Of a stretch of DNA of 48,862 nt, positions 9,030 to 29,315 are shown piece by piece. The DNA is from Aromatoleum toluolicum. GTDB lineage: Bacteria > Pseudomonadota > Gammaproteobacteria > Burkholderiales > Rhodocyclaceae. The translations under genes were made by a program, and so were the position numbers. The notes beneath the pieces were generated by a model. The model made no database searches. It had not been told where the DNA came from and worked only from the letters and a program-made list of their open reading frames with translations. How positions within the stretch are numbered: the stretch's first letter is position 1; each line of letters begins with the position of its first letter. The stretch is taken from contig NZ_WTVS01000044.1 in the NCBI RefSeq assembly GCF_012911005.2, positions 1 to 48,862 on the forward strand, in the 5' to 3' direction.

Positions 9030-9047
9030 CATCGTCCGTTGAGACTA
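9030..9047 (-). promoter_or_regulatory. Shared palindrome, site A (HsaC-Ipd operon promoter)
   Basis: Read toward the dioxygenase gene the site is TAGTCTCAACGGACGATG, 70 nt before its start codon. The last 8 bases recur at four other sites (24831, 26846, 26908, 29298), and the whole 18-mer is identical at 26846-26863. Exactly 20 nt after the site comes GACAAT (9009-9004), a plausible -10 with no good -35. A centre near -43 would suit an activator that contacts RNA polymerase (class II). The binding protein is unknown; a LuxR-type regulator like TeiR or one of the local TetR proteins are guesses. Confidence 0.6.
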
Positions 9048-9116
9048 CGGGTTGCCGCAGAGGACCAGGCTCGAACGATCGCTGCCGGCTGCCGGATTCG
9101 TGGGGAGGCTGATCGA

Positions 9117-9185
9117 TATCGGCTTTCGCGATACTTGCATTTTATCGTCAAAGCCGATACATTACATTTATCTGAATTCCCGATA
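9117..9185 (+). promoter_or_regulatory. hipBA promoter with three phased operators
   Basis: Three 17-bp palindromes of form TATCK-N7-CGATA lie at 9117-9133, 9143-9159 and 9169-9185. Their starts are exactly 26 bp apart. The first two also carry nearly the same core in opposite orientation. HipB proteins are known to bind TATC...GATA palindromes, so these are read as autoregulatory operators. A candidate promoter, TTGCAT (9135-9140) and TACATT (9158-9163) with 17-bp spacing, straddles the middle operator. The hipB ATG is at 9194. Confidence 0.75.
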
Positions 9186-9193
9186 TTCGTGCC

Positions 9194-9433
9194 ATGTATC
9201 GTCTCGCGACACCTCAACAGGCCGGGCAGATTCTGACCAGCCGTCGCAAGTCGCTCGGTCTGTCGCAGGCAGCGACCGCCACCGGGCTGGGCATCAGCCA
9301 GAACCGGCTTTCCGAACTCGAAGCCCACCCCGAGCGCCTCACGCTGGATCGGCTGATCTCGCTCGCCAGCCTGCTGGGTCTCGAACTCGTCTTGCAGGAG
9401 AAGCCGCCCTCCACCGACACGAGCGAGTGGTAG
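9194..9433 (+). CDS. hipB: HipB-like antitoxin, HTH_XRE DNA-binding protein
   Basis: A 79-residue helix-turn-helix protein with the XRE pattern SRRKSLGLSQAATATGLGISQNRLSELE (about 16-43), the HipB architecture without the long C-terminal tail. It would neutralise the HipA kinase and repress its own operon through the three TATC/GATA palindromes just upstream. The stop codon is followed by the hipA start after 2 nt, a typical coupled antitoxin-toxin order. There is no strong Shine-Dalgarno before the ATG at 9194, so a slightly different start cannot be excluded. Confidence 0.85.
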   Translation: MYRLATPQQAGQILTSRRKSLGLSQAATATGLGISQNRLSELEAHPERLTLDRLISLASLLGLELVLQEKPPSTDTSEW

Positions 9434-9435
9434 CC

Positions 9436-10758
9436 ATGGGGCGCCGCTCGCACGCTCGCGCGCTCAATGCCTGGGCCAACGGCACGCTGGTCGGTCAATG
9501 GCGCCTCCCGGCCCGCGGGCCGGCCGAGTTCCAGTACGAGCCGTCGTGGACCGCCGCGCCGGAAGGGCGCCCGCTGTCCCTGTCGCTGCCGATGACGCCC
9601 GACAACGTCCCGTTGCGCGGCGAGAGCGTCCTCAACTATTTCGACAACCTGCTGCCGGACAGCGACCGCATCCGCGCCCGCCTGCAGACCCGCTTCCACA
9701 CCCGCAGCCGGGAGGCCTTCGACTTGCTGGAGGCGATTGGCCGGGATTGCGTCGGCGCGCTGCAAGTACTTTCGCCAGATGCGCCCCCCGCCAACGTGTT
9801 CACGATCGAGGTCGAACCGCTCGACGACGCCGGCGTCGAGCGGATGCTCACCGCCGCAGTGGCCTCGACCAACCGCCTCACGGCCGAAGACGACGAGGAT
9901 TTCCGGATCTCGATCGCCGGGGCCCAGGAAAAGACGGCGCTCACCTGGCATGCGGGCCAATGGTGCCGGCCCCTCGGCGCCACGCCGACCACCCACATTT
10001 TCAAGCTGCCATTGGGCCTGGTCGGCAACCGACAAGCGGACATGCGCACCTCGGTCGAGAACGAATGGCTGTGCGCGCAACTGCTCGCCGAGTTCGGCGT
10101 GCCCGTCGCGCCCAGCGAAATTCGGCACTTCGGCGCGCAGAAGGTGCTCGTGGTCGAGCGCTTCGACCGCAAGCTGGCCAGTTCGGGCGAATACTGGCTG
10201 CGACTGCCGCAGGAAGACTTCTGCCAGGCCACCGCGACGCCGCCCCACCTCAAGTACGAGGCCGACGGCGGCCCCGGCATCATCGACATCGCCCGCATCC
10301 TGCACAGCGCGCAATCCCGCGACAACGATCTCGCGATCCTGCTGCGCGCGCAGCTCCTCTTCTTCCTGCTCGCAGGCACCGACGGCCACGCCAAGAATTT
10401 CTCGATCTTCCTGCTCCCCGGCGGCCGCTACCACCTCACGCCACTCTATGACGTGCTGTCCGCCTGGCCCGTGACCGGCGACGAGCCGAACCACCTCGAT
10501 TACCAGAAGCTGCGCCTCGCGATGGCGCTACCGGGAAAGAACAAGCACTACCGCCTGCGCGACATGCTGCGCCGGCACTTCAACGAGACGGCGCACCGGT
10601 GCGGTTACGGCCCCGACATGGAGGCCATCATCGAGGACATCCTCGCCCGCCTCCCTGCGGTCATCGACACCGTTGGCTCGCGCCTGCCGGCGGACTTTCC
10701 CGCCGATGTCTTCGACACGATCGCCGACGGGATGCGGCGGTCGGCCAAACGCCTGTGA
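9436..10758 (+). CDS. hipA: HipA-like serine/threonine kinase toxin
   Basis: A 440-residue protein of normal HipA length. An N-terminal subdomain with ESVLNYFDNLLP (about 63-74) is followed by the Ser-loop region SIAGAQEKTAL (159-169), the lysine-containing IFKLPLG strand, and the catalytic DGHAKN motif (D316-N321). A metal-binding D339 lies in LYDVL. HipA toxins phosphorylate aminoacyl-tRNA synthetases (GltX in E. coli), causing growth arrest and persistence. The target here is unknown. The same frame stays open far upstream, but the ATG at 9436 right after hipB is the natural start. All kinase residues look intact. Confidence 0.88.
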   Translation: MGRRSHARALNAWANGTLVGQWRLPARGPAEFQYEPSWTAAPEGRPLSLSLPMTPDNVPLRGESVLNYFDNLLPDSDRIRARLQTRFHTRSREAFDLLEAIGRDCVGALQVLSPDAPPANVFTIEVEPLDDAGVERMLTAAVASTNRLTAEDDEDFRISIAGAQEKTALTWHAGQWCRPLGATPTTHIFKLPLGLVGNRQADMRTSVENEWLCAQLLAEFGVPVAPSEIRHFGAQKVLVVERFDRKLASSGEYWLRLPQEDFCQATATPPHLKYEADGGPGIIDIARILHSAQSRDNDLAILLRAQLLFFLLAGTDGHAKNFSIFLLPGGRYHLTPLYDVLSAWPVTGDEPNHLDYQKLRLAMALPGKNKHYRLRDMLRRHFNETAHRCGYGPDMEAIIEDILARLPAVIDTVGSRLPADFPADVFDTIADGMRRSAKRL

Positions 10759-10810
10759 GCGGGGCGCAACGGCTGCCCGGTCCCGTCTGGCCGCAGCCTG
10801 CCGGGCGCAC

Positions 10811-10847
10811 AAAAAAAAAGGCCGCTCACCCGGAAGGCAGAGCGGCC
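10811..10847 (-). terminator. Intrinsic terminator of the DUF35-MaoC operon
   Basis: Read on the minus strand, GGCCGCTC pairs perfectly with GAGCGGCC (8 bp, 12-nt loop) and is followed immediately by nine T residues, a textbook rho-independent terminator. It begins about 25 nt past the stop of the DUF35-MaoC gene (10873). It also separates this operon from convergent hipA, which ends at 10758. Confidence 0.88.
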
Positions 10848-10872
10848 AACAAGGAGAGGACCACGAGAGCAA

Positions 10873-11835
10873 CTACATATAAAGAATCACAAGATCGTTG
10901 ATGACCGAGGGGCGATCGTTGCCGACGACGTGCGTAGTCACTTCCAGCGTCAGCTGCATGCCTTTCGCGAGCTTCTCGACCGACTTCACTCGCGCCCTTG
11001 CGTGAATGCGGGACCCCGCGGGCACCGGCGCGGGGAAGCGCAGGCGGTCGGAGCCGTAGTTAACCATGTTGTTGAAGCCGGTCACTTCGAAGCCGAGCGG
11101 CATCTTCAGGCGCGATTGCAGGATCTGCACCAGCGCGCCATGCGCGATCGTGCCGCCGAAGGGGCTCTGTTTGGCGGCGCGCTCCGGGTCCGTGTGGATC
11201 CAGTAGTCGTCTCCGGAGAGTCTTGCGAATTCGTCGATCAGCGCCTGGTCGACGACGACCTTGCTGCTCCACGGCGTGAAGACGTCGCTCACCAGCGACT
11301 TCATCGCCGCCTCGTCGTCGAAGCGCACCTGCCGCACGCTCGTCGCGGCGATCTCCGCAGTCACCTTCGCGTCCGTTGCCGCCGCGAGTGCCTCGGGCGT
11401 GCTGTCGAGGCGCGCCGGAAAATCCTTCTCGGCCCCAGTGAAGCGCAACAGCGTGGCGCCGTCCGCCCGCACCTTGTCGAACACCGCTTTCACGCGCATG
11501 CCGACGCGGATTTCGGCTTCGTCCACCCCGACCAGCGTCGTATTGATGCGCACGCCCTCGTCGAGTTCGACCACCGCAAGCTTCTGCGGCATCTCGTCGG
11601 CGAAGTCGGGCAGCGTCGGGATGCGCGCCACGGTGTAGGAGTAAAGCTGCCCCTCCCCCGACACTTCCCGCCATTCGACTGCATGCGAAAAGCAGCGGTC
11701 GCAGTGGCGGCGGGGGTAGAAGATCCAGTGCCCGCATGCGGTGCAGTGCGGTATGCGCAGCACGCCCTCTTTCAGGGCGTTCCAGAAGGGTGCCGAGATC
11801 TCGGTCGGCGCCGGCATCGGTTTGTTCATCGACAT
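10873..11835 (-). CDS. DUF35 (OB-fold) to MaoC-like hydratase fusion
   Basis: A 320-residue two-domain protein. Residues about 15-130 form a DUF35 module with a rubredoxin-like zinc ribbon (HCTACGHWIF...HCDRC) and an OB-fold. The C-terminal half is a MaoC/hot-dog hydratase with the signature GDDYWIHTDPERA and FGGTIAHGALV, catalytic Asp and His kept. The start is taken at ATG 11835 (GGGAG about 10 nt upstream); a GTG at 11844 overlaps the thiolase stop as GTGA. In mycobacteria ChsH2 joins the same two domains in the opposite order and docks the Ltp2 aldolase. Here the preceding gene is the matching thiolase-like protein. Likely role: hydrate a side-chain enoyl-CoA and scaffold its retro-aldol cleavage. 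Confidence 0.82.
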   Translation of the reverse strand: MSMNKPMPAPTEISAPFWNALKEGVLRIPHCTACGHWIFYPRRHCDRCFSHAVEWREVSGEGQLYSYTVARIPTLPDFADEMPQKLAVVELDEGVRINTTLVGVDEAEIRVGMRVKAVFDKVRADGATLLRFTGAEKDFPARLDSTPEALAAATDAKVTAEIAATSVRQVRFDDEAAMKSLVSDVFTPWSSKVVVDQALIDEFARLSGDDYWIHTDPERAAKQSPFGGTIAHGALVQILQSRLKMPLGFEVTGFNNMVNYGSDRLRFPAPVPAGSRIHARARVKSVEKLAKGMQLTLEVTTHVVGNDRPSVINDLVILYM

Positions 11836-11840
11836 GTTCG

Positions 11841-13052
11841 TCACGCTCCCTGCAGGATCAAGGCGCCCTGCTCGCTCATCACGCCGCCGGTGCCGGACAC
11901 ATAGACCCGGTCGCAACGCTTCAACTGACGATCGCCTGCGCGGCCGGCGAGCTGGGTGAAGGCCTCGATCACCTGCGACATGCCGCCGGCCGAACCGGCC
12001 TGGCCGAAGCTCAGCTGCCCGCCGTGCGTGTTCATCGGGAAATTCCCGCGCCACGTGAGGTCGTGCTCGCGCACGAAGCGCATGCCTTCGCCCTTCTCGC
12101 AGAAGCCCGCGTCCTCGAGCGTCAGCAGCACCGTGATCGTGTAGCAGTCGTAGATCTGCGCGGCGTCGACGTCGCCCGGCTTGAGCCCGGCCATCTCGAA
12201 CGCACGGCGCGACGCAGGGCCGATGGGCGTCTCGGTCATCTCTGCCGCATAGGAGGGCGACTTGAACGCGAGATGTTCGCCGAAGCCCGTGACGAAGGCC
12301 GGCCGGTTGCGCGCGCGCGCCGCGACCTCCTTGGACGCGACGATCACTGCCGCCCCGCCCGCCACCGGCATCACGATCTCCAGGACATGCAGCGGGTCGG
12401 CGACCATCTTGCTCGCGAGGACCTCTTCGGCGCTCAGCGGCTTGCCGAAGAACATCGCCTCGGGGTTCGTCAGCGCGTTGGTGCGCTGGTCGACCGCGAT
12501 CTTCGCCATCGCTGCCGGGTCGTAGCCGTAACGCGCCGCATAGCGTTGCGCGATCATCGCGTAGCCGGTGTTCTGCCCCATGTGCCCATACGGCAGGTCG
12601 AACTCCGCCTCGGGCGCGCCGAACGCCGTGCTGTGCCCGCCGAAGCGCATCGCCCGCGCCATCCAGGCAGGATCTTCGTCGGGGCCCAGAGGCGCCATGC
12701 GCGCCGGCAGCACGCACAACACCGCCTGGCACAGCCCGAGTTCGATCGCCGCCGCCGCACGCCACACCATGCCGACGGAAGTCGTGCCGCCGAGATCGAC
12801 AACCTCGGCGAAGTTCAGCCGCATCCCCAGGTACTCCGCGGCCATCGCCGGCACGAAGACGGACGCCTCGTGGAACTGCGGCCCGTTGATGACCAGGCCG
12901 TCGAGATCCGACGCCTGCAACCCGGCGTCCTGCAGTGCGCGTGCCGCGAGATCCGCCACCTGTTCGAGGTGGAACATGCGCGGCGCGGTCGCGTATTTTT
13001 CCGGCCTGTACTGCGCCGCCCCGACGATCGCGGCCTGTCCTTTCAGTCCCAT
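11841..13052 (-). CDS. Thiolase-like protein, probable steroid side-chain aldolase (Ltp2/Sal1-like)
   Basis: A 403-residue SCP2-thiolase/Ltp family protein. At the position of the nucleophilic Cys of true thiolases it reads VDLGGTTSVG, so it cannot form the usual acyl-enzyme. C-terminal landmarks YDCYTITVLL and NTHGGQLSFG are those of the Ltp2-type aldolases, which use Tyr residues for retro-aldol chemistry. It is co-transcribed with a DUF35-containing partner, as Ltp2 and Sal1 are. It should release a short acyl-CoA from a beta-hydroxy steroid CoA, leaving a ketone or aldehyde. AAGGGG precedes the ATG. Annotation pipelines would probably call it acetyl-CoA acetyltransferase. Confidence 0.8.
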   Translation of the reverse strand: MGLKGQAAIVGAAQYRPEKYATAPRMFHLEQVADLAARALQDAGLQASDLDGLVINGPQFHEASVFVPAMAAEYLGMRLNFAEVVDLGGTTSVGMVWRAAAAIELGLCQAVLCVLPARMAPLGPDEDPAWMARAMRFGGHSTAFGAPEAEFDLPYGHMGQNTGYAMIAQRYAARYGYDPAAMAKIAVDQRTNALTNPEAMFFGKPLSAEEVLASKMVADPLHVLEIVMPVAGGAAVIVASKEVAARARNRPAFVTGFGEHLAFKSPSYAAEMTETPIGPASRRAFEMAGLKPGDVDAAQIYDCYTITVLLTLEDAGFCEKGEGMRFVREHDLTWRGNFPMNTHGGQLSFGQAGSAGGMSQVIEAFTQLAGRAGDRQLKRCDRVYVSGTGGVMSEQGALILQGA

Positions 13053-13296
13053 GTCAGCCCCTTCGCGATTCTTGCCATTGCCGTTACCGGCGATGGAGGA
13101 ACGATGCCATAGGCCAGGACGGGAGGTAATCGTTCAAATCGACTAGGCCCGGTCGGGCGATCCTTCCAGCCAATTGCGGAATGTAGTCCGCCTGGATGAT
13201 GCGCATGCGGCCGCACACTGGAAAGGTCGACAAAGCTGCCACGCCGACAGTCAGGAAATCCCGGCGCGGACCCATGCATACCAAGGAGAACGCAGG

Positions 13297-13584
13297 ATGG
13301 AACAACTCACCCCCTGGATCGGCCTCGTCGGCCTGATCGGTCTCGCCGGCCTCGCCGGCCTGAAGTCGCCGGTAACGCGTTCGCGTCCGGGCGCCGTCGT
13401 CCGCGTGCTGGGTGTGCTCGGCCTGGCCGGCCTGAGTGGCATCTGGGTTCCGGGGGCGGGCGCGATGGGCGCCTTCGGCGCACTCGGACTATGGAACCAC
13501 CAGTCCGACCGCCTCGCCTTGTGGGGACGCCTGGGCTGGACCGGGCTGCTCGGCGTACCTTTCGCGCTGGCCGCCCTCCTCTGA
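13297..13584 (+). CDS. Small Gly/Leu-rich membrane protein, unknown function
   Basis: A 95-residue protein dominated by Gly, Leu, Ala and Val, with three or four short hydrophobic stretches (for example WIGLVGLIGLAGLAGL) and a few charged residues between them. The ATG at 13297 has AAGGAG at 8-nt spacing, good support for translation. It converges with the aldehyde dehydrogenase gene, with one base between the two stop codons. I do not recognise the family; it is probably an inner-membrane protein. The 244 bases upstream (13053-13296) hold no other gene and must contain its promoter and that of the divergent aldolase operon. Confidence 0.6.
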   Translation: MEQLTPWIGLVGLIGLAGLAGLKSPVTRSRPGAVVRVLGVLGLAGLSGIWVPGAGAMGAFGALGLWNHQSDRLALWGRLGWTGLLGVPFALAALL

Positions 13585-13585
13585 G

Positions 13586-15013
13586 TCAAACACGCAGGGT
13601 CTTGAGCAGGCGCTCGTAAAGCTGCCGGCGGTACGGTGGCGTCAGTCCGAGCGCCTTGCGCGGGTCGCACCACCCGCTGCGGTACACGGTGCGCGGATGG
13701 CTGAATTGCTCGAAGCCTTCGCGCCCGTGATACACGCCCATCCCGGAACTGCCGACGCCGCCGAAAGGCGCGTCGTGGGCGGCGACCTGGATCAACACAT
13801 CGTTGATGGCGACGCCGCCGGAAAGCGTGTGCTCCAGCACCCGACGCTCCTCGCGCTTGTCTGCGCCGAAGTAGTAAAGCGCGAGCGGCCGCGGGCCATC
13901 GTTGATCCGACCGATCACCTCGTCGATGTCCGTGTAGGACTCTACCTGCAATAGCGGGCCGAAGATCTCCTCGCGCGCCATCAGGCAATCGCGCGGGGGA
14001 TCGATCACCAGGTGCAAGGGCCGGCGCCGACCCGACGGCGCCAAGCCGCCGCCACAGTCGACGATGCGTGCGCCGCGCGCCGTGAGTTCGTCGAGGTACG
14101 CATCCAGCCGCGCCCGATGCCGCTCATCGACGATCGCCGTGAGGGCCTCTGCCCCCGCGTCCGGCGGAAAGAGCCAGGAATGCACCTCGACGCAGGCGGA
14201 TACGAAACGCTCCAGCGCCTCACGCGGAACGTACACGGTGTCCGGGCTGACGCATATCTGGCCGGCATTCATCGTCTTGCCGAGCAGGATGCGCTCCGCA
14301 GTCACACCGATATCCGCACTGCGCCCGACGATCACAGGCGACTTGCCGCCGAGCTCCAGCGTCACCGGCACGAGCTGCTCCGCAGCCGCGCGCATCACGC
14401 GCACGCCCGTGGCCGAACTGCCGGTCAGCACCAGATGGTCGAAGGGCAGCGCGCTGAAAGCGGCGGCCACCGATGCATCGCCGTTGAACACCGCGACCTC
14501 GTCTTCCGAAAAGGCATCGCGCACGGCATCGCACAGCAGCTGCGCGGTGCGCGGAACGAGTTCGGACGGCTTGAGCATGGCGCGGTTGCCCGCGGCAAGG
14601 ACGAAGGCCAGCGGAGCGAGCGTCGTAAACAAGGGCACGTTCCATGTCCCGAGGATGCCGATCACGCCCTTCGGCATGCGGTGCACATCGACGCGTGCGC
14701 CGAACAGGCTGAACGGAAACACCCCGCCGCGACGTTCGGGCTTCATCCAGTGCCGGACATGCTTGCGCGCGTACTTGACCGAGTTGAAGGTCGCCATCAC
14801 GTCGTTCATGAGCGAGATTTCGCGCGGGCGGCCGCCGAAGTCTGCGTCCAGCGCAGCGCAGAAGTCGTCTGCGTGCGAACGCAGGAGCTCGAGAAGCCGG
14901 GTCAGGCGATCGATGCGCAGCTCCGCGCTGACTTCCCCCGCCCGGCGTTGCGCGTCCTTCATCACGCGCAGCGCCTCAAGGAGTGGATAGGGTGCCTCGT
15001 TCGGCATGCTCAT
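13586..15013 (-). CDS. Coniferyl-aldehyde-dehydrogenase-type NAD(P)-dependent aldehyde dehydrogenase
   Basis: A 475-residue aldehyde dehydrogenase. LELGGKSP carries the general-base Glu, and NAGQICVSPD carries the nucleophilic Cys. The membrane-free short form with NVPLFTTLAPL resembles coniferyl aldehyde dehydrogenases (CalB) and fatty aldehyde dehydrogenases. The start at 15013 is preceded by GGGAAG at 6-nt spacing. It is last in an operon behind a GMC alcohol oxidoreductase, 41 nt apart, so the two may act in sequence: alcohol to aldehyde to acid. In cholate degraders an aldehyde dehydrogenase (Sad) oxidises the steroid aldehyde left by the aldolase, a possible alternative role. Confidence 0.83.
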   Translation of the reverse strand: MSMPNEAPYPLLEALRVMKDAQRRAGEVSAELRIDRLTRLLELLRSHADDFCAALDADFGGRPREISLMNDVMATFNSVKYARKHVRHWMKPERRGGVFPFSLFGARVDVHRMPKGVIGILGTWNVPLFTTLAPLAFVLAAGNRAMLKPSELVPRTAQLLCDAVRDAFSEDEVAVFNGDASVAAAFSALPFDHLVLTGSSATGVRVMRAAAEQLVPVTLELGGKSPVIVGRSADIGVTAERILLGKTMNAGQICVSPDTVYVPREALERFVSACVEVHSWLFPPDAGAEALTAIVDERHRARLDAYLDELTARGARIVDCGGGLAPSGRRRPLHLVIDPPRDCLMAREEIFGPLLQVESYTDIDEVIGRINDGPRPLALYYFGADKREERRVLEHTLSGGVAINDVLIQVAAHDAPFGGVGSSGMGVYHGREGFEQFSHPRTVYRSGWCDPRKALGLTPPYRRQLYERLLKTLRV

Positions 15014-15054
15014 TTCGTTCTTCCCAAAGGATGTCGTCAGGGGCCGCGGCCAGG

Positions 15055-16659: not shown

Positions 16660-16660
16660 C

Positions 16661-17353: not shown

Positions 17354-17377
17354 CGGAGAATTCCTCGTCATCGGCTG

Positions 17378-19490: not shown

Positions 19491-20168
19491 TCAGGCGGAG
19501 GCGTTGACGCCGAGCGCGCCCAGCGCCATCGCCACCAGGCAGTCGAGAAACTCCGGTCGGCTCACGCGTTCGGGCGCATCTTCCAGTGCGACGCGGATGG
19601 TCGCGCGCGAGGCCATGCCGAGCATGTAGGCGGCCATGTCGCGGCGAGCGGGATCGAGATCGGGCACATACAGATTCACGAACGCACCCCACGCCTCATC
19701 GACATACTGGCTGGTGCTCTCGTAAGGTCCCAGCCGCAGGCCGACTTGCAGTTCCGGATGATATTTCAGATGGAATTCCGCGTTGAGTCGGTGCAGGCGC
19801 AATTCCTGTCGAATCATGTTGCCCAGGATCTCGCGCAATGCAGCGTCGAGCGGCAGGCCCACCACGCGTTGCCGCAGCGCCGGAACATGGACTGTCGCCT
19901 CCTCGTGGAGGATGTGATCGAAGGCGAGGCTGACCACCGCATCCTTGTTCGGAAAATACTGGTAGATCGAGCCCACGGCCACCCCCGACACTTCGGAGAG
20001 ACGATTGACGGTCAGCGCCTCCGCCCCCTCCTTGTCCAGGATCTGCAGGCAGGCCTCGACCAGCGCCGCCACGAGCGAGCGCGAACGCGACTGCGACGGC
20101 ACCTTGCGCGGAGCGGGCAGGCGACCGCTGCCCTTCTCCCCTTCGCGAACGGTCTTCTTGCTGGTCAT
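19491..20168 (-). CDS. TetR-family transcriptional regulator
   Basis: A 225-residue TetR protein. The N-terminal HTH spans about residues 35-80, with LTVNRLSEVSGVAVGSIYQYFPNKDAV characteristic of the recognition helix. The C-terminal ligand domain is not assignable. The ATG at 20168 has only a distant GGGAGG (12 nt), so the start is moderately sure. It lies between two operons whose promoters share a 16-nt core, one downstream on the same strand (kinase to aldehyde dehydrogenase) and one divergent (sulfatase). It is probably their local repressor, responding to a hydrophobic substrate or CoA ester. Confidence 0.83.
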   Translation of the reverse strand: MTSKKTVREGEKGSGRLPAPRKVPSQSRSRSLVAALVEACLQILDKEGAEALTVNRLSEVSGVAVGSIYQYFPNKDAVVSLAFDHILHEEATVHVPALRQRVVGLPLDAALREILGNMIRQELRLHRLNAEFHLKYHPELQVGLRLGPYESTSQYVDEAWGAFVNLYVPDLDPARRDMAAYMLGMASRATIRVALEDAPERVSRPEFLDCLVAMALGALGVNASA

Positions 20169-20248
20169 AAGAATGCGAGACCTCCCGGGGCTTCTCCCGA
20201 AATCGGAGTAATTATTCCAAATAAACAGACGCTTGCAGGCGGAAATCG

Positions 20249-20298
20249 GCTCGACCAATACGAATTCCGGTGCGATGGGACTGCTCCCTATACTTTTC
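20249..20298 (+). promoter_or_regulatory. Promoter of the sulfatase operon, twin of the kinase-operon promoter
   Basis: GCTCCCTATACTTTTC (20283-20298) is identical to the promoter core before the kinase operon. Both are preceded, 10-11 nt upstream, by a similar 15-mer: AATACGAATTCCGGT here and AATGCGAATCACGGT there, 12 of 15 identical. The -10 would be TATACT. A 13-bp palindrome TTATTCCAAATAA (20212-20224) lies closer to the tetR start. The remainder of 20169-20457 shows no gene. Confidence 0.55.
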
Positions 20299-20457
20299 CC
20301 ACCCCCGCGGTCGGGCACATCGACCGCTGCAAGCATGCCGCAGCACTCTAACAAACGGGCGCGGGAATCGAGCAGATTCGAAAGCCCGCGCGCGATCCGG
20401 ACGAATGCGGGGCGGCAACGGCCTCGCACGAGGCCGCTCATCGACAAGGAGACCGGG

Positions 20458-21612
20458 ATGAACGGAGGCAGCGTGGGCCCCCTGCTCGCGGCAGACGAGG
20501 GATTCAACCACCAGATTGTCGAGACCTTCGCGAGCGTCAGCCACACCGACCTCGCGTGGACCGAGAAGGTGTGCGGCATGGCTGCGGCCCGGGACGGTTC
20601 GCTGCAGATCGGGTTCGGCTTCGGCAAGTACGTGAACCGCAACGTCGTCGACGGGTACGGCGGGGTTTCCCGCGGCGTGGAGCAATGGGTAGTGCAGGCC
20701 AGCCGGGAACTCTCCCGTTCGCCGGACGATGTCGATGTCGGGCCCCTGCACTACGAAGTCATCGAAGCGCTCAGGCGCATCCGCGTCCGGCTCGAGCCGA
20801 ACGACGCGCAGCCGATCGGCTTCGATGTCGAGCTCGAAGGCATCGTGCCGTGCTTCGCCGAAGAGCGCGAGGATCGGCGCGGCTTGACGGGCTACCGTCG
20901 CACCGCCGACCAGATCCGCTATCACCAGACCGGCCACGCCCGCGGCTGGGTGGAGGTCGACGGGCGGCGCACCGAAATCACGCCCGAGTCCTGGATCATG
21001 ACGCGCGACCATTCATGGGGCATCCGTCCCGGCGTCGGCCGCCCGGTGACGGATGTCGCCCCCGAGCTGGTCGACTCGGAACACATCCGCGTACTCGCCG
21101 TCTGGAATCCTCTCTACTTCCAGGACCGGGACAGCGCCACCTACGCCTTCCACCAGTACTACCTGCACTACTCGGCACCGGGTTTCGACCAGAAACGGGT
21201 GCAGGGGCATTTCGAATATGCGGACGGCCGTCGCATTGCCGTCGCGATGATCGAACCCGCGCTTCGCTTCGCGCCCGAGAACCGTCGCCTGCTGGGCGGG
21301 GTGTTCCGCCTGCGCATGCAGGACGGTAGCACCCGCGAACTTGCGGCGCGCCCGCTCGGCGATACGGGCTTCCATCTCGGCGGCGGGCTCTATCACCGCC
21401 TGGACGGCCGGAACCACGGCACCTACTGCGGCCCGCTGCACGTCGAAGGCGAGTACTTCGCCGACTGCTCACACCCCGAGGCCGTCGCGATCCTCAACCA
21501 GTTCCGCGACTGCATGATCGAGGTCACGGACAGCGCCACCGGCGCGACCGGGTGGGGGAACTGCCAGACCTACGTCTCCGGGGCATGGCCCGAACTCGGG
21601 CTGCCGTCATGA
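20458..21612 (+). CDS. Conserved protein of unknown function (RDHSWGxRP motif)
   Basis: A 384-residue, mostly beta-strand-like protein without signal peptide. The ATG at 20458 has AAGGAG at 6 nt. Notable is TRDHSWGIRPGVG (about 181-193), followed by stretches rich in Tyr and aromatic residues and a second repeat-like half ending YCGPLHVEGEYFADC. This reminds me of the lipocalin-like hydroxyneurosporene-synthase/AttH group and DUF7064/7065 proteins, but I cannot confirm it. Its stop overlaps the start of the sulfatase-maturase gene (ATGA), so it belongs to the sulfatase operon and may handle the same hydrophobic substrate. Confidence 0.6.
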   Translation: MNGGSVGPLLAADEGFNHQIVETFASVSHTDLAWTEKVCGMAAARDGSLQIGFGFGKYVNRNVVDGYGGVSRGVEQWVVQASRELSRSPDDVDVGPLHYEVIEALRRIRVRLEPNDAQPIGFDVELEGIVPCFAEEREDRRGLTGYRRTADQIRYHQTGHARGWVEVDGRRTEITPESWIMTRDHSWGIRPGVGRPVTDVAPELVDSEHIRVLAVWNPLYFQDRDSATYAFHQYYLHYSAPGFDQKRVQGHFEYADGRRIAVAMIEPALRFAPENRRLLGGVFRLRMQDGSTRELAARPLGDTGFHLGGGLYHRLDGRNHGTYCGPLHVEGEYFADCSHPEAVAILNQFRDCMIEVTDSATGATGWGNCQTYVSGAWPELGLPS

Positions 21613-22898
21613 ACGCCCAGCCCCGCTGCAACCTGCCTCCCCTGCCCCCGGGCCGGCAGTACCGCTTCCACGTCATGGTGAAACCGGCCGGCGCGCTGTG
21701 CAATCTCGACTGCCCGTACTGCTTCTACCTGCACAAATCCGAACTGCTCGGGCACCCGCGCAACGCGCGCCTCAGCGACGCGCTGCTCGAAACCCATATC
21801 CGGCAGTACATCGAGGCGCAGACCGGCGACGAGGTGGTCTTCTCGTGGCAGGGCGGCGAGCCCACCGTGATGGGCCTGGACTTCTTCCGCCGTGTGGTCG
21901 AACTGCAGGCCCGCCACCGCAAGCCCGGCCAGCGCATCGAGAATGACCTGCAGACCAACGGCCTGCTCCTCGACGACGAGTGGGTGGCCTTCCTCAAGGC
22001 ACACGGCTTCGTCGTGGGCCTGAGCCTCGACGGCACGCGTGAACTGCATGACCGCTACCGCCCGACGAAGGGTGGCGAACCGACCTTCGATCGCGTAATC
22101 GCGGCCGCAGGGCGACTGGCCGCCGCCGAGGTGCCCTTCGCGCTGCTGTGCGTCGTCAATCGCGACGTCGCCCGCGCGCCGCTGGACGTCTATCGCGCCC
22201 TGCGCGCCGTTCCCGGCACCTTCCGCATCCAGTTCACGCCCTGCGTCGAGACGCGCGACTTCAAGCTCCGCGCCCCCGGCCTGCAACGCGACGCCGCGAT
22301 GCCGCCCCTGGGCACCCCGCGCACGCGGCCGGAACACCCGCTGTCCATCGTCACCGAGTGGTCGGTCGATGCGCGCGACTACGGCGATTTCCTCACGACC
22401 GTCTGGCGCGAGTGGCTCGCGCACGACTTCGGGCGCCTGCACATCAACGTGTTCGAGACGGCGGTCGCGCAGTCGCTGGGCCTGCCCGCGCAGATGTGCA
22501 CGAGCGGACCGGTCTGCGGCAAGGCGATGGCTCTCGAGCAGGACGGCGAGCTCTACGCTTGCGATCATTTCGTCTATCCGGAATTTCGCCTCGGCAATAT
22601 CCGCGAGCTCCACGAAGGCGACCTCGCCTTCTCGCAGCGGCAAACCGACTTCGGCCTCGCCAAGCACGACAGCCTGCCCGGTTTCTGCCGCCGCTGCCCA
22701 CACCTGAACCTGTGCTGGGGCGAGTGCCCGAAGAACCGCCTGCTGCGCACACCCGACGGCGAGGCGGGCCTCAACTACCTGTGCGAGGGGCTGCAGGCCT
22801 TCTATGCGCAGGTCGCCCAGGACATGCCGGAGATTCGGCGCCGGCTCGGCGTCCCGACACCTGGCACCCCAACCCCAACCAATGGAGACACCCGATGA
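21609..22898 (+). CDS. Anaerobic sulfatase-maturating enzyme, radical SAM/SPASM
   Basis: A 429-residue radical SAM protein. The CxxxCxxC cluster is C31, C35, C38 in CNLDCPYCFY, followed by FSWQGGEPT for SAM binding. A SPASM domain with many cysteines ends in CRRCPHLNLCWGECPKNR. This is the anSME/AtsB type that converts the active-site Ser or Cys of sulfatases into formylglycine in the cytoplasm. It is translationally coupled on both sides: its ATG overlaps the upstream stop, and its stop overlaps the sulfatase ATG. Its presence matches the Ser-type active site of the adjacent sulfatase. Confidence 0.9.
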   Translation: MNAQPRCNLPPLPPGRQYRFHVMVKPAGALCNLDCPYCFYLHKSELLGHPRNARLSDALLETHIRQYIEAQTGDEVVFSWQGGEPTVMGLDFFRRVVELQARHRKPGQRIENDLQTNGLLLDDEWVAFLKAHGFVVGLSLDGTRELHDRYRPTKGGEPTFDRVIAAAGRLAAAEVPFALLCVVNRDVARAPLDVYRALRAVPGTFRIQFTPCVETRDFKLRAPGLQRDAAMPPLGTPRTRPEHPLSIVTEWSVDARDYGDFLTTVWREWLAHDFGRLHINVFETAVAQSLGLPAQMCTSGPVCGKAMALEQDGELYACDHFVYPEFRLGNIRELHEGDLAFSQRQTDFGLAKHDSLPGFCRRCPHLNLCWGECPKNRLLRTPDGEAGLNYLCEGLQAFYAQVAQDMPEIRRRLGVPTPGTPTPTNGDTR

Positions 22899-24457: not shown

Positions 24458-24482
24458 AGGCCTGAGGATCCTCGCCACCACT

Positions 24483-24504
24483 ACGGCCGCCTTGAGGCGG
24501 CCGT
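24483..24504. terminator. Hairpin between convergent sulfatase and small-protein genes
   Basis: ACGGCCGCC and GGCGGCCGT form a perfect 9-bp stem with a TTGA loop, 26 nt past the sulfatase stop and 24 nt past the stop of the minus-strand small gene. No T-tract follows on either strand. It may be a bidirectional terminator or 3'-end stabiliser. Confidence 0.55.
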
Positions 24505-24527
24505 TCGCAGCGCACCCCGGGTGGGGT

Positions 24528-24707
24528 TCAGCGCATCGCCAGTGCGGCGAACATCTTGTCTGCAGACACCTGCCCCACGACAATACCGGGGCAGTGATGG
24601 ATTCCGGCCTCGCAGCTGGCCACCGTCTCTTGCGCGGTGCCGACCTTGAACCATTGCGAACCCAGGAAAGCGCACAGGGCGCCGAACACGAGCAGCTTGA
24701 TCGTCAT
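24528..24707 (-). CDS. Small exported or membrane-anchored protein, unknown
   Basis: A 59-residue product. The ATG at 24707 is preceded by GGAGAG at 7-8 nt. It opens with a hydrophobic signal-like segment (IKLLVFGALCAFLGS). A short soluble tail follows, with two Cys residues in ASCEAGIHHCPG that could bind metal or form a disulfide. No family recognised. A copy of the shared palindrome (24831-24848) lies 124 nt upstream, in the same orientation as at the steroid genes. This suggests a co-regulated small periplasmic protein. Confidence 0.5.
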   Translation of the reverse strand: MTIKLLVFGALCAFLGSQWFKVGTAQETVASCEAGIHHCPGIVVGQVSADKMFAALAMR

Positions 24708-24830
24708 TGTCTCTCTCCAGTCGGGCCTCTGACGGGCCTCTCTACTGACCGATCCCGATTCGCCAATCCCCTGTGGGGTTAATGCGACCGGCTCTGTATG
24801 ACGCAACTTGCGCCGCCCCACGGCAGCGCA

Positions 24831-24848
24831 CATCGTCCAAATGGACTA
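24831..24848 (-). promoter_or_regulatory. Shared palindrome, site F (overlaps fadD stop)
   Basis: On the minus strand TAGTCCATTTGGACGATG. Half-sites GTCC and GGAC are perfect inverted copies around 4 nt. It overlaps the stop codon of the FATP-type ligase and faces the small exported-protein gene. The hexamer 20 nt downstream (CAAGTT) is a poor -10, so promoter activity here is less certain than at the other four sites. Confidence 0.5.
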
Positions 24849-26714
24849 TATCGCCGCAGCAGTCGTGGCCCGGAACTCTGGCAGGCCGGCTTTCGCCAAC
24901 TCCGCGGCAGAATACGGCAGATAAGTGCGCTCGGCCTCGCTGCGAACGTACAGCGGATCGTCGAACGCCGTCGGGTCATACCCCTGGCGCTGCAGGTCGA
25001 CCTTGCGCAGTTTGAATGTGGTGGTGAGGTCTGCCGCACGGGACACGCGCACGAACAGGGGCGCCGCATAGCGGGGCAGCCGCTCCTCGGTCAGCGCGTA
25101 GAAACCGGCCGGATCGAAGCTTCGCCCTTCCTGCATCACGATCGCCGCCATCCCCGCGCGGCCCTCATGTTCGGGCACCCTCACGCCATAGATGTTGATC
25201 AGCTCGGCGCCGGGATAATCGGAGAGCGCATCGGCAACCTCCATCGTAGAGACGTTCTCGCTCTTCCAGCGGAAGGTGTCGCCGATACGGTCGACGAAGT
25301 AGAAATAGCCATCCTCGTCGTAGCGCAGAAGGTCGCCCGAACTCCAGTACGCGTCGCCCTCGACGAAGACGTTGCGCAGGATCTTGCGCTCCGTGGCGTC
25401 CGCCGACGTATAGCCCTCGAAGCGCCCGCCCCCGATATCGGGATGATCGACGATGTAGCCGATGCCCTCCCCCACCTCGCCGGGTTGGCACAGCAGGTAG
25501 AAACCGCGCGCGTCGCGCACGTGCTCGCCGCTTTCGAGGTCGTAGCGCACGAGACGGAAGTTGGTCTTCTCCCAATACGGCACACGGCCGCAGGAACCGA
25601 GGCGGTTGTCGACGTTGATCAGGTTGGTGTTCGCCTCCGTGGAGCCCCAGCCTTCGAAGATCTGGATCGGACCGAAGCGCTCGATCCAGCGCAACCAGGA
25701 TTCGGGAGTGAGTCCCGCCCCCATCATGCAGCGCAGGCCATGGTCGCGATCGCGCTCCGAAGCGGGCTGATTGAGCAGATAACGGCAGATCTCGCCGATG
25801 TACTGGCATACGGTGACGCCATAACGGCGCACGTCGTTCCAGAACTCGCGCGTGCTGAATTTCCGGCGTACGACGATCGTGGCGCCCGCCTTCAGCGCCG
25901 TGGAGGTGACCGAGGTTGCCGCCGCCCCGTGATAGAGCGGCAGGAAACAGTAGAAGGCGTCGTTCGGGCCCGCGCCGATGGTGTCGACCATGACGTCGCC
26001 CGACGACATCCAGCGCATGTGGCTGTAGCGCGCGGCCTTCGGCAGCCCCGTGGTGCCGGACGTGAAGATCAGCAGGGCCGGCGTCTCCGCAGTGAGCGAC
26101 GCACGCGGTTCGCGCGGAAAGGGGTCCCGCGGGGCGCGCTCGACTTCGTCCGCGAAATCGGTGTCCCCCGCGCGCCGCAGGCCTGCCCCGGCCGGTCTCT
26201 CGGCATCGGGCAGCAGCCACTGCATGACGTTCGGAAGACCTTCCGTTACGCCGAAATTCGCGAGGCACTCCTCACCGACGAGCACCGCCTTCGCGCCGGT
26301 TGTCTCGATGGCGTGCGCCAGCGGGCGGCCGCTCACCTGCGTGTTGATGAAGGCTGCGACGGCACCGAGCTTCGCCAAGCCGAACCACGCGAAGAAGAAC
26401 TCGGGGCGGTTCTCGATCGCCATCGCGCAGACGTCCCCCGCCCCAAGTCCGCGTGCACGCATCGCATGCGCATACTGATTGGCGCGTCCATCGACCTCGG
26501 CATAGCTGTAGCGGGTATCGCCGTAGACGAGGAAGGTCCTGCGCCCCTGAACTGCAGCCTGCGCCTCGAGGCGGTCGGCGATCGTATATAGGTCACGCGG
26601 CTTGATCAGCGCGCTGCTCTGCGCACGCCGATCAAGCTTGGCCTGGGTCTCATCCCGCGACACGATGTCCACCGAAGGCTGCGATGCGTTGCGGGCCGCG
26701 ATGCCGTTATCCAT
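24846..26714 (-). CDS. FATP/very-long-chain-type acyl-CoA synthetase
   Basis: A 622-residue AMP-forming ligase. The P-loop-like motif is IFTSGTTGLPKAARYSH, the adenine-binding region FEGWGSTEANTN, and the FATP-type signature DRIGDTFRWKSENVST. This subfamily includes eukaryotic bile-acid and very-long-chain CoA ligases and bacterial FadD6/FadD17-like enzymes. A bulky substrate such as a steroid carboxylate is plausible. The ATG at 26714 is chosen because GGAG lies about 8 nt upstream; the open frame extends further but through the regulatory region. Monocistronic, with a copy of the shared palindrome 132 nt upstream. Confidence 0.82.
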   Translation of the reverse strand: MDNGIAARNASQPSVDIVSRDETQAKLDRRAQSSALIKPRDLYTIADRLEAQAAVQGRRTFLVYGDTRYSYAEVDGRANQYAHAMRARGLGAGDVCAMAIENRPEFFFAWFGLAKLGAVAAFINTQVSGRPLAHAIETTGAKAVLVGEECLANFGVTEGLPNVMQWLLPDAERPAGAGLRRAGDTDFADEVERAPRDPFPREPRASLTAETPALLIFTSGTTGLPKAARYSHMRWMSSGDVMVDTIGAGPNDAFYCFLPLYHGAAATSVTSTALKAGATIVVRRKFSTREFWNDVRRYGVTVCQYIGEICRYLLNQPASERDRDHGLRCMMGAGLTPESWLRWIERFGPIQIFEGWGSTEANTNLINVDNRLGSCGRVPYWEKTNFRLVRYDLESGEHVRDARGFYLLCQPGEVGEGIGYIVDHPDIGGGRFEGYTSADATERKILRNVFVEGDAYWSSGDLLRYDEDGYFYFVDRIGDTFRWKSENVSTMEVADALSDYPGAELINIYGVRVPEHEGRAGMAAIVMQEGRSFDPAGFYALTEERLPRYAAPLFVRVSRAADLTTTFKLRKVDLQRQGYDPTAFDDPLYVRSEAERTYLPYSAAELAKAGLPEFRATTAAAI

Positions 26715-26845
26715 GCATTTGTCTCCGTTATATCTGTTCTCGTGCCCCCTCGTTCGCAGCATTGCCGCAGGGGACTGGAGGGCCGGCGGCTTGAAACGCC
26801 GGGCCTCTTGACGGAGCCAATCATTCACCTGGAGTGGAAGCGGAA

Positions 26846-26863
26846 CATCGTCCGTTGAGACTA
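26846..26863 (-). promoter_or_regulatory. Shared palindrome, site B (FATP-type ligase promoter)
   Basis: The 18-mer is identical to site A at 9030-9047 (minus strand TAGTCTCAACGGACGATG). Exactly 20 nt further on, toward the ligase gene, lies AATGAT (26825-26820), a 4/6 match to a -10. Same orientation relative to its gene as all other copies. Confidence 0.6.
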
Positions 26864-26907
26864 ATGGCAGTCGCCGCGGCGCAAACCCGTGCTGGCAACG
26901 GGTGCCA

Positions 26908-26925
26908 CCGTCTGAACGGACGATG
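26908..26925 (+). promoter_or_regulatory. Shared palindrome, site C (folE2 promoter)
   Basis: Plus strand CCGTCTGAACGGACGATG, an inverted copy of site B placed 44 nt away, pointing toward folE2. It keeps GTCT-N4-GGACGATG. Twenty nt downstream is GACGAT (26946-26951), a weak -10. A transcript from there would start near 26958, which fits the folE2 start at 26980 and excludes earlier in-frame ATGs. Confidence 0.5.
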
Positions 26926-26979
26926 ATGCAGTTGCCGCGGCGGCGGACGATGGACCCGAACCCTCACCGGAACGACGCG

Positions 26980-27768
26980 ATGAAACTCAACGACATCCCG
27001 GACGTGCAGTCCGCACACGACGCGCGCGCGATGCCGATCGACAAGGTCGGCATCCGCTCGATCCGCCACCCGGTGCGGGTGCGCGACCGCAGCGGCCACA
27101 CGCAGGGTTCTGTCGCGGTCTTCGACATGTACGTGGGCCTCCCGCAGCACTTCAAGGGCACGCACATGTCGCGCTTTGTCGAGATCCTTAACGGGCGCGA
27201 GCACGAGATCTCGGTCGAGGCGCTGGAACCGATGGTGCGCGACATGATTGCCCGGCTCGAGGCCCGCACCGGGCATCTCGAGATGCGCTTTCCCTTCTTC
27301 GTGAACAAGGCCGCGCCGGTGTCCGGCGTCAGCAGCCTGATGGATTACGAGGTAACGCTCACCGGCACGGTCGGCGACGATGACCGCTTCCGGCTGATCC
27401 TGAGGGTGCTGGTGCCGGTGACCAGCCTGTGCCCGTGTTCGAAGAAGATCTCCGCCTACGGGGCGCACAACCAGCGCTCCCACGTGACGGTCACGGCGAC
27501 CCTGCGCGAACACGTGTGGATCGAGGACATCATCGCCCTGGTCGAAGGCCTCGCCTCGTGCGAGCTGTACGGCCTCCTAAAGCGCGCAGACGAGAAGCTC
27601 GTCACCGAGCGCGCCTACGACAACCCGAAATTCGTCGAGGATACCGTCCGCGACATCGCGGGCGCGCTGGGAGCGGACCCGCGCATCGGCCACTTCGTTG
27701 TCGAGGCCGAGAACTTCGAATCCATCCACAACCATTCCGCCTACGCCCTGATCGAACGCACGGCCTGA
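26980..27768 (+). CDS. folE2: GTP cyclohydrolase I type 2 (FolE2)
   Basis: A 262-residue protein with the FolE2 hallmark [21 protein letters not shown] (active-site Cys and His), the N-terminal IPDVQSAHD and PIDKVGI segment, and normal length. It converts GTP to 7,8-dihydroneopterin triphosphate for folate (and 7-deazaguanine) synthesis without needing zinc, and is often zinc-starvation controlled. The start at 26980 matches family N-termini; no strong Shine-Dalgarno is visible, and in-frame ATGs at 26950 and upstream are less likely. Its link to a steroid-gene promoter motif is unexpected. Confidence 0.9.
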
Positions 27769-27770
27769 CG

Positions 27771-28445
27771 TCAGTTGCGCTCGAGCACGTGACGGACCGT
27801 GTCCATCACTTCCCGCCTCAGGAGGGCGTGGTCCACCTCGATGCCGCGCACGGCGCGGACGGTGATTCCGAAAAGGATCGCGCTGATCAGTTCGTACTGC
27901 GCTGCAATCCGCGCCTCCAGGGCCTCGCCCGCCAGCCCGGCGTTGACCAGGCGCAGACTCCGGTAAGCGCTTTCGCGCGCGCGCCGGTCGAGCGCATGCA
28001 CACGCGCGGAAATGCACGGATTGCGTGCGCTCTCCGCGAGAATCTCCAGACGCAGCCGCGAGTTCTCCGGATCCGCGTAATGGAGGGCGATGTCGCCCGA
28101 GCGCGCGACGATCGCATCCACAACATTGTGTTCGAGGCGCACCGCGTCGTGTATTTCGAGCAGGGCGTCGAGCTCCGCCTCCGCGATCGCGGTGATGATC
28201 TCTTCTTTGTTCTTGAAGTAGTAGTAGATGTGGCCGGCGCTGACGCCCGCCACCGCAGAAATTTCCGCGATGCTCGCGCCGTGGAACCCCTTGTCGCGGA
28301 AGCACTCCTCCGCCGCCTCGAGGATCTGCCGGCGGCGAGCCCCCGGCCCGCTCCCCGGAGCATCGCCCGCTTCCGCCTGGACCAGTCCGGTGCGCGCGTC
28401 GAGCTTCACGTTTGTGGCAGCATCAAATGAACCTTCATCGCCCAA
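27771..28445 (-). CDS. TetR-family transcriptional regulator next to hsdA
   Basis: A 224-residue TetR protein with HTH ARRRQILEAAEECFRDKG then IAEISAVAGVSAGHIYYYFKNKEEI (about 37-84). The only start giving the full frame near the SDR gene is TTG at 28445, without a clear Shine-Dalgarno. A GTG about 12 codons later is an alternative, so the N-terminus is uncertain. It follows hsdA by 10 nt in the same direction, suggesting co-transcription. It converges with folE2, with 2 nt between the stops. A role in controlling steroid genes is likely from context but unproven. Confidence 0.8.
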   Translation of the reverse strand: MGDEGSFDAATNVKLDARTGLVQAEAGDAPGSGPGARRRQILEAAEECFRDKGFHGASIAEISAVAGVSAGHIYYYFKNKEEIITAIAEAELDALLEIHDAVRLEHNVVDAIVARSGDIALHYADPENSRLRLEILAESARNPCISARVHALDRRARESAYRSLRLVNAGLAGEALEARIAAQYELISAILFGITVRAVRGIEVDHALLRREVMDTVRHVLERN

Positions 28446-28455
28446 CGCGACGCAC

Positions 28456-29223
28456 TCAGAAGCGCTCCAGGCGGGTCAGCGCATCCATGCCGCCGTCGAC
28501 GAACACCACCGTGCCGTGCATGAAACCCGCCTGCTCCGACTGCATGAATCCAACCACCTTGGCGATCTCGTCGGGGCTGCCGTTGCGGCCCAGCGGAGAG
28601 ACAAAATTGCGGATGGCCTCGCCATAACGCGGATCCGACAGCGAGGCCTGCAGCAGCGGCGTCTCGACCGCGCCGGGCGCAACCACATTCAGCCTTATGC
28701 CGCGGCTGCCCCACTCCACTGCCTTGCGACGCGCGAACACGGTAATCGCGTACTTCGAGCCAGCATATGCGGCCTGCGGATTGGCCATGGCGTCGGCCTG
28801 CGCCTTGGCCGCCGCTTCGTCACGCCCAAGCATCAATTCGACCATCGGCAACTTGTCGATGCCGGGGTGGGCCGAAGCCACCGAGCCGATCAGAAGCGCC
28901 GCAGGCTTGCCGCCCCGCGCGAGGGCGTCGCCGAGGCCGTCGACGAGCTCGCTCATGCCGAAATAATTAACGGCGACAATCAACCCGCAGGAACTCGCGG
29001 TCGGCCCCAGGCCGGCGCAGCAAACCAATCCGTCGAGGACGCCGTTGCAGGCCTTGAGCGCGGCGGCGACCGCCGCGTCCCGCCCCTCGGCGGTGGAGAG
29101 ATCGGCCACGATGTCGGCGTCGCGCCGGTCGATGCCGATCACGCGATGCCCGGCCTGCTGCAGTTGCTTGGCTACAGCGGCTCCGATACCCGATGCCGAG
29201 CCGGTGACGACGGTTACAGTCAT
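28456..29223 (-). CDS. hsdA: 3-alpha-hydroxysteroid dehydrogenase/carbonyl reductase (SDR)
   Basis: A 255-residue classical short-chain dehydrogenase. The Rossmann motif is TGSASGIG (7-14). ADLSTAEGR, DGLVCCAGLGP and VNYFG follow, then catalytic S114 (GSVASAH), Y153 and K157 (YAGSK). The Ser number and the DLSTAEGR and PLLQAxLxDPRYGE blocks match HsdA of Comamonas testosteroni closely as I remember it. That enzyme interconverts 3-alpha-hydroxy and 3-keto steroids with NAD(H), an entry step of steroid catabolism. The shared palindrome lies 75 nt upstream. Confidence 0.87.
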   Translation of the reverse strand: MTVTVVTGSASGIGAAVAKQLQQAGHRVIGIDRRDADIVADLSTAEGRDAAVAAALKACNGVLDGLVCCAGLGPTASSCGLIVAVNYFGMSELVDGLGDALARGGKPAALLIGSVASAHPGIDKLPMVELMLGRDEAAAKAQADAMANPQAAYAGSKYAITVFARRKAVEWGSRGIRLNVVAPGAVETPLLQASLSDPRYGEAIRNFVSPLGRNGSPDEIAKVVGFMQSEQAGFMHGTVVFVDGGMDALTRLERF

Positions 29224-29297
29224 GCAAATCTCCTGAAGTGGCGGCGATGCCCAAGTTCGCCCTTTGGCCGAGTATCGGGCTCCGGTCCACTGACTGG

Positions 29298-29315
29298 CAT
29301 CGTCCGGCCGGACTA
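29298..29315 (-). promoter_or_regulatory. Shared palindrome, site D (hsdA promoter)
   Basis: Minus strand TAGTCCGGCCGGACGATG, the most symmetric copy (GTCCGGCCGGAC is a perfect 12-bp palindrome). Twenty-one nt toward hsdA is GATACT (29276-29271), a good -10. It also lies between divergent hsdA and the Cache-domain gene, which has its own TACAAT at 29338-29343. Confidence 0.6.

Follow-up and report, generated by a model that had tools for sequence, protein, structure and literature searches.

A palindrome at steroid-degradation promoters of Aromatoleum toluolicum as a probable operator of TesR/TeiR-family LuxR-type activators

Palindromic sites and the genes behind them

The window analyzed here, a stretch of 48,862 nucleotides (nt) from Aromatoleum toluolicum (contig NZ_WTVS01000044.1), carries a recurrent palindrome in front of genes of a steroid-degradation cluster. 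The palindrome is described by the 16-base pattern GTCY-N4-GGACGATG, which has a longer form, TMGTCY-N4-GGACGATG, with TAGTCY-N4-GGACGATG as the proposed operator; its dyad spans 12 bp (GTCY-N4-GGAC) and is followed by a one-sided GATG, as compared with the about 20 bp expected for a lux-type class II box. An earlier inspection of the letters alone (the sequence-only reading hereafter) had placed sites at 9030–9047, 24831–24848, 26846–26863, 26908–26925 and 29298–29315, and all five were found there as exact matches. It was also confirmed that two of them, 17.8 kb apart, are identical over 18 bases, that all five point toward the nearest downstream gene, and that at four of them a -10 hexamer follows after 20, 20, 20 and 21 nt. 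Four of the five sites start with TAGTC, and the one before folE2 starts with CCGTC.

The site at 9030–9047 (TAGTCTCAACGGACGATG, minus strand) is followed 20 nt on by GACAAT, so that transcription is predicted to start at about 8997. Its target is an hsaC/tesB-like extradiol dioxygenase gene (8070–8963, minus strand; start at about 8963), the first gene of an operon that continues with genes for a CoA-transferase, an enoyl-CoA hydratase, acyl-CoA dehydrogenases and a thiolase, down to about position 96. The dioxygenase scores 265 bits with the HsaC model (curated cut-off 450) and 266 bits with the biphenyl-2,3-diol dioxygenase model (cut-off 366), below the cut-off in both cases. The identical site at 26846–26863 (minus strand; -10 AATGAT, predicted start about 26813) precedes an acyl-CoA ligase gene on the same strand (open reading frame (ORF) 24846–26828, likely start about 26714). 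Its divergent partner at 26908–26925 (CCGTCTGAACGGACGATG, plus strand) has a -10-like GACGAT with a predicted start at about 26958 and lies before folE2, whose likely start is 26980.

The site at 24831–24848 (TAGTCCATTTGGACGATG, minus strand), which overlaps the ligase ORF at its stop codon, precedes a gene for a small protein of 59 amino acids (24528–24707, minus strand). Its hexamer, CAAGTT at 20 nt, is weak and keeps the family-conserved A and T described below; the predicted start is about 24798. The site at 29298–29315 (TAGTCCGGCCGGACGATG, minus strand; GATACT at 21 nt, predicted start about 29264) precedes a short-chain dehydrogenase/reductase (SDR) gene of the presumed hsdA type (28456–29223, minus strand). 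On the opposite strand the same palindrome (29300–29317, plus strand) has TACAAT 20 nt on, toward a Cache-domain gene (ORF 29364–30260, plus strand, likely start 29382). Because of this TACAAT at the -10 place, the hsdA-type site is predicted to be a two-way promoter, with the divergent transcript starting at about 29350.

When up to two mismatches were allowed, the pattern occurred 31 times in the window; 100 dinucleotide shuffles gave 11.83 ± 3.31 occurrences, with a largest value of 20. With a matrix built from 75 sites of other genomes, close relatives included, the five sites scored 26.1–36.9 bits, as compared with at most 12.3 bits in 20 shuffled windows. The scan added a sixth, variant site, TAGTCCGCCTGGATGATG (13184–13201, plus strand; 21.3 bits), with AAAGGT at the -10 place and a predicted start at about 13234, upstream of a small ORF (13297–13584, plus strand). 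The opposite-strand reading of the 29298 palindrome reached 17.3 bits; both values exceed those of all 20 shuffles. The 24831 palindrome scored 14.3 bits on its opposite strand, where no good -10 is seen.

Distribution in the genome and promoter geometry

The matrix was applied to the window, and the genome-wide counts are from pattern searches (6.16 Mb in 289 contigs). The A. toluolicum genome contains 17 exact matches to GTCY-N4-GGACGATG, while the reversed control has none. In our classification, 13 of the 17 are promoter-type and four (on contigs C30, C134, C177 and C223) lie inside called ORFs; the sites are thus not scattered irrespective of promoters. Five of the promoter-type matches are those in the window, and the other eight lie on C19, C21, C249 and C261 (one each) and on C260 (four). 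The genes beside these eight encode SDR enzymes, a flavin reductase, a KshA-type Rieske oxygenase, DUF1329 and DUF1302 proteins, an amidase–SDR–thiolase group, a group consisting of a major facilitator superfamily (MFS) transporter, a hydrolase and an old yellow enzyme, an F420-type oxidoreductase and an enoyl-CoA hydratase. Three of the eight each overlap a called ORF close to its start, namely the KshA, C261 SDR and F420-type ORFs, and these ORF calls are probably too long. The TMGTCY form with one mismatch allowed gave 43 matches, among them a one-mismatch match at C249:18414, as compared with 9 in the reversed control. Exact TAGTC-type matches number eight, and all eight precede steroid-cluster genes or, in one case, a small ORF.

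The promoter geometry was examined with 137 distinct TMGTCY-N4-GGACGATG sites with flanks, which thinning at 70% flank identity reduced to 115. Before the columns were counted, 34 coding-like sites were set aside, leaving 57 TA-type and 24 TC-type sites. Among the 57 TAGTC-type sites (first T = 0), 53 have A at position 39, 51 have T at position 43 and 50 have both. At the other 59 offsets, A-N3-T occurs in 2.05 of these sites on average and in 9 at most. Harsher thinning retained the pair at the same offset in 34 of 41 sites. The set-aside group evidently includes true sites, because 18 of its 34 members carry the fixed -10.

In the sigma-70 -10 element, -11A and -7T are conserved and lie four bases apart. 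The A/T pair matches these two bases, which puts the predicted transcription starts such that the palindrome would be centered at -42.5. LuxR homologues usually bind at this position (PMC4471428), the usual place of the lux box. The sequence-only reading had proposed an activator centered near -43 with no good -35 element; the nearly invariant geometry points to the same arrangement at -42.5. One departure is the kshA-type site of G012, another genome of the Aromatoleum group: in our reading it lacks a -10 at the proper place, and a degenerate second site 50 bp further has one.

These results bear on the explanation that the palindrome is a repeat due to chance or composition, GGACGATG being a string of codons (GAC GAT) often met in GC-rich genes. 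Some matches do behave in this way: four of the 17 in A. toluolicum lie in genes, and in six other genomes (G019, G026, G077, G082, G100 and G119; 6–10 matches each) all of the 26 examined matches, from a total of 46, overlap ORFs of at least 150 codons. Since these 26 fall in ORFs, the six genomes, which had been considered as carriers of the regulon, were taken as background. However, the absence of matches in the reversed control, the pattern and spacing controls given below, the fixed -10 and the two-peaked genome counts contradict such an origin for the promoter-type sites, and we regard it as very improbable.

Conserved targets and co-occurrence with LuxR-type regulators

The site recurs at homologous genes of Aromatoleum, Thauera and Comamonas. 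The hsaC-type operon has it in G012, Thauera sp. 28 (G122) and Comamonas G183; the ligase site (26846) is conserved in G012; and the hsdA-type site (29298) is conserved in G012 and Thauera sp. 28, in both of which the hsdA-type gene remains paired with the Cache-domain gene. G012 also has a one-mismatch-type site before an HsaA-type gene. In Comamonas G183, sites precede an SDR gene, the tesB-like gene, an enoyl-CoA hydratase gene, a BNR-repeat gene, an HsaA/TesA2-like gene and a gene that to us reads like an MFS transporter. Thus, the steroid regulon suggested by the sequence-only reading is supported, since the sites stand at steroid-cluster genes here and at homologous genes in other genera. 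The spacer N4 varies across the regulon, although several orthologous promoters keep it unchanged from genus to genus. At hsaC it is CAAC in the window (9030), G012 (2104089) and Thauera G122 (114317), and CAAT in Comamonas G183 (1569482); CAAC is found at further promoters as well. The kshA promoters of the Aromatoleum group and Thauera have AAAA, and those of the flavin reductase gene have GTTG.

Two LuxR-type paralogues, 40% identical to each other, are encoded outside the window: LuxR-A (387 amino acids; C21:1533–2696), near the flavin-reductase gene, and LuxR-B (379 amino acids; C249:12043–13182), near kshA and nearer to TesR. With the Pfam GerE model, LuxR-A falls below the cut-off and LuxR-B above it. 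A 650-residue ORF at C21:226–2178 was rejected as a LuxR candidate; its letters show no LuxR, and the LuxR gene lies in another frame. Relatives at 96% identity were found in Azoarcus sp. Aa7 and Aromatoleum evansii. LuxR-B and its G012 copy are 48–49% identical to the Comamonas G183 protein encoded where the tesB-like operon ends, and in a midpoint-rooted tree the Comamonas cluster proteins group with LuxR-B of the Aromatoleum group and Thauera (support 100/99), apart from LuxR-A. In G183, the LuxR gene stands directly behind the thiolase gene, at the end of the gene run that starts with the HsaC/TesB-like gene, a position like that of tesR, which ends the tesB cluster of strain TA441 (PMC13101464). 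The Thauera sp. 28 cluster (G122:C3) carries three paralogues of the TesR family (38451, 115215 and 153371). About 110 bp in front of the third of these genes stands a site, which suggests autoregulation.

An AlphaFold2 model of the Azoarcus sp. Aa7 homologue (mean predicted local distance difference test score 76, predicted template-modeling (TM) score 0.61) appears to us to consist of a GAF-like part, a PAS-like part and, at the C terminus, a GerE helix-turn-helix. Foldseek comparison with the PDB returned phytochromes, SdiA, other quorum-sensing regulators and the VqsR ligand domain; among the matches listed, the best E value was 1e-7 and the TM score to the query did not exceed 0.36.

Regulator and sites occur together. 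A LuxR match at E ≤ 1e-15 was found in 11 of the 27 genomes searched, namely 8 of the 17 of the window's genus, each of which carries both an A and a B copy, and G026, G043 and G077 (29, 45 and 25% identity). The eight genomes have 17, 9, 13, 17, 15, 16, 14 and 12 motif matches and the other nine of the genus 2–5, with 0–3 per genome in the reversed control. In G001, three of its 9 matches are identical in letters to steroid sites of A. toluolicum, and in G043, two of the four matches examined are promoter-type and two lie in coding-like frames. Among 53 genomes of the genus Comamonas, 18 contain three or more sites (3–6 each), and two more have one. The LuxR family (E ≤ 1e-30) occurs in exactly the same 18, and the 35 genomes without it have 2 matches in total. 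The chance of identical sets is about 1.5e-14 if the genomes are taken as independent, and the value is a guide only because they are not.

A contig profile search retrieved, from other genomes, 43 loci with TesR/TeiR-like LuxR genes of Aromatoleum, Thauera, Cupriavidus, Burkholderia, Comamonas, Pandoraea, Pseudomonas, Sterolibacterium and other genera. Their 854,664 bases contain 44 exact motifs, 39 of them outside the first four Aromatoleum-group loci, and two control patterns gave 0 and 0. At least one exact motif is present in 33 of the 43 loci, several of which come from close relatives within Cupriavidus or Burkholderia. The spacing is specific, GTC-N6-GACGATG occurring 72 times and the N5 and N7 versions 6 times each. 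Whole-genome searches with the TMGTCY form in 15 of these genomes gave 1–15 matches each and one in the reversed control overall. The matches lie largely on one contig in a Thauera metagenome-assembled genome (11 of 11), Thauera sp. 28 (14 of 15) and Pandoraea captiosa (10 of 11), while they are scattered in Paraburkholderia oxyphila.

The sequence-only reading had named two kinds of regulator, a TeiR-like LuxR-type activator and a local TetR; the co-occurrence favors the former, TesR/TeiR-type LuxR. The alternative is that the palindrome is the operator of a TetR-family protein encoded in the window (19491–20642 or 39097–39807), acting as a repressor or an unusual activator. The Thauera sp. 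28 cluster contains homologues of both genes and G012 a homologue of one, and the regulators of cholesterol genes in Mycobacterium tuberculosis, KstR and KstR2, are TetR-like (PMC6678751). Neither protein, however, was matched at E ≤ 1e-20 in 134 kb of the Comamonas cluster, where the same sites precede homologous genes, and the near-fixed -42.5 place without a good -35 suits an activator better than a repressor. A TetR-based explanation is thus quite unlikely.

Another activator might instead read the sites, for example the AraC-type protein encoded just upstream of the C19 site or a regulator outside the cluster, with the LuxR genes merely traveling along; co-occurrence tests do not separate linked genes. 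The G012 ORF in the same place as the AraC-type gene (2145950–2146954) is, however, unmatched at E ≤ 1e-15 in the clusters of Thauera G122 and Comamonas G183, and when ten G012 ORFs were scanned with Pfam, the seven common to both clusters, a minority of the shared ORFs, were not regulators. Enzyme-anchored searches also bear on this explanation. An HsaC homologue at E ≤ 1e-60 is present in 5 of 369 genomes of the class, A. toluolicum included. The Comamonas genome among them has an exact site before the HsaC gene, LuxR genes and 6 sites; it is not an independent case, because its site coordinates (G410) are identical to those of Comamonas G182. In the other three (40–46% identity), neither a LuxR relative (E ≤ 1e-10) nor an exact TMGTCY-type site was found, and near their HsaC genes one two-mismatch match was seen, in one locus. 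This comparison points to the regulator rather than the enzyme as the partner of the sites, though the number of genomes is small and the three may encode other dioxygenases. We consider control by a different activator unlikely.

Proposed control and relation to known systems

Taken together, the palindrome is probably the operator of a TesR/TeiR-family LuxR-type activator of steroid-degradation genes, in the Aromatoleum group and in many beta- and gammaproteobacteria. A dimer of the regulator would bind the dyad centered at -42.5, overlapping the place of the missing -35 element, and would recruit sigma-70 RNA polymerase to the weak -10 (nAnnAT) 20 nt on, by class II activation as at the lux box. 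The signal would be a steroid or a metabolite of it. The computations establish the motif with its enrichment, target conservation and promoter geometry, and its occurrence alongside the LuxR family; binding, dimerization and this sensing, as well as any assignment of sites to LuxR-A or LuxR-B, are what we infer for the family. A tentative and rather doubtful extension is that one near-invariant operator travels with the cluster across beta- and gammaproteobacteria, that two or three TesR paralogues read it for different intermediates, and that N4 sets the choice of paralogue or the promoter strength.

Several observations weigh against this explanation. The -10 pair is kept in only 10 of the 24 TC-type sites, and some of these may therefore be auxiliary or due to chance. 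In Comamonas G183, the hsdA-type gene lacks a site of this pattern, an exact site is missing from the DNA searched around 10 of the 43 LuxR genes, and G019 has 10 matches with no LuxR match at E ≤ 1e-15, its four examined matches all lying in ORFs. Since regulator and sites share a gene cluster, joint inheritance could explain their co-occurrence. The two or three paralogues per genome make site assignment ambiguous, and the edge of the family is blurred: plasmids of other bacteria often carry relatives of about 30% identity, and all of the 162 plasmid records with a relative show less than 60% identity. TeiR has been described as a polar membrane kinase (PMC6678751), and another LuxR protein as a repressor of a steroid dehydrogenase gene (PMC8700777). 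Finally, the case is computational, and binding and induction are predictions from it.

The closest known system is the TesR/TeiR regulon of Comamonas testosteroni, in which TesR is required for induction of the tesB, tesA1 and tesA2 clusters (PMC6895838). Common features are a family protein encoded in the cluster and sites before tesB-, tesA2- and SDR-type genes; the present regulon differs in its two paralogues and in having folE2, the Cache-domain gene and small ORFs among its predicted targets. The lux box of quorum-sensing LuxR shares the palindrome at -42.5 and the LuxR-type helix-turn-helix, whereas the letters GTCY-N4-GGAC, the shorter dyad with its conserved one-sided GATG, and a sensor half predicted to be GAF-like and PAS-like set the present system apart. 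The operators of mycobacterial KstR and KstR2, which likewise serve cluster-wide control of steroid catabolism, have another consensus, and the 18-mers of the window, compared by eye with the KstR consensus, did not fit it. Those regulators are TetR-like repressors (PMC6678751), while the sites described here stand at an activator position.

TesR-like genes outside C. testosteroni are not new. Although PMC6895838 cites a report of such genes only in C. testosteroni, two are mentioned for Pseudomonas stutzeri Chol1 (PMC8399759), and our genome scans found relatives of at least 40% identity in many other genera. As for the operator, none was found in the excerpts of PMC6678751, PMC6895838, PMC8399759, PMC8700777, PMC12239570 and PMC13101464. 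A literature search, judged by titles and the starts of abstracts among the matches listed, did not bring up a description of it, though the original TeiR papers may contain one, and a text search for the motif letters gave, among the matches listed, none titled on bacterial steroid degradation. A review describes the regulation of bile-acid degradation in Proteobacteria as largely unknown (PMC8399759).

Given a defined operator and a family-wide regulator, one oligonucleotide and two deletions would be enough to test the regulon. The operator also provides a sequence handle for unknown steroid genes, here folE2, the Cache-domain gene and two small ORFs, and its promoters are natural promoters for steroid biosensors.

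Some of the genes in the window deserve separate mention. The product of folE2 (26902–27768, plus strand) is a GTP cyclohydrolase (PF02649), and the role of a folate/pterin enzyme behind a steroid-regulon site is puzzling. The 59-residue protein encoded at 24528–24707, behind a strong site, has a hydrophobic N-terminal stretch and three cysteines. No convincing match to it was found in the Thauera G122 or Comamonas G183 clusters; a 62% identical homologue lies behind an equivalent site in G012. The divergent neighbor of the hsaC operon (9052–10758, plus strand) encodes a HipA N-terminal domain protein (model couple_hipA), and the first part of this frame may be a separate small helix-turn-helix gene starting near 9194. 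A sigma-70-family protein (regions 2 and 4) with a DUF6596 domain is encoded within the steroid region at 32879–34162 (plus strand).

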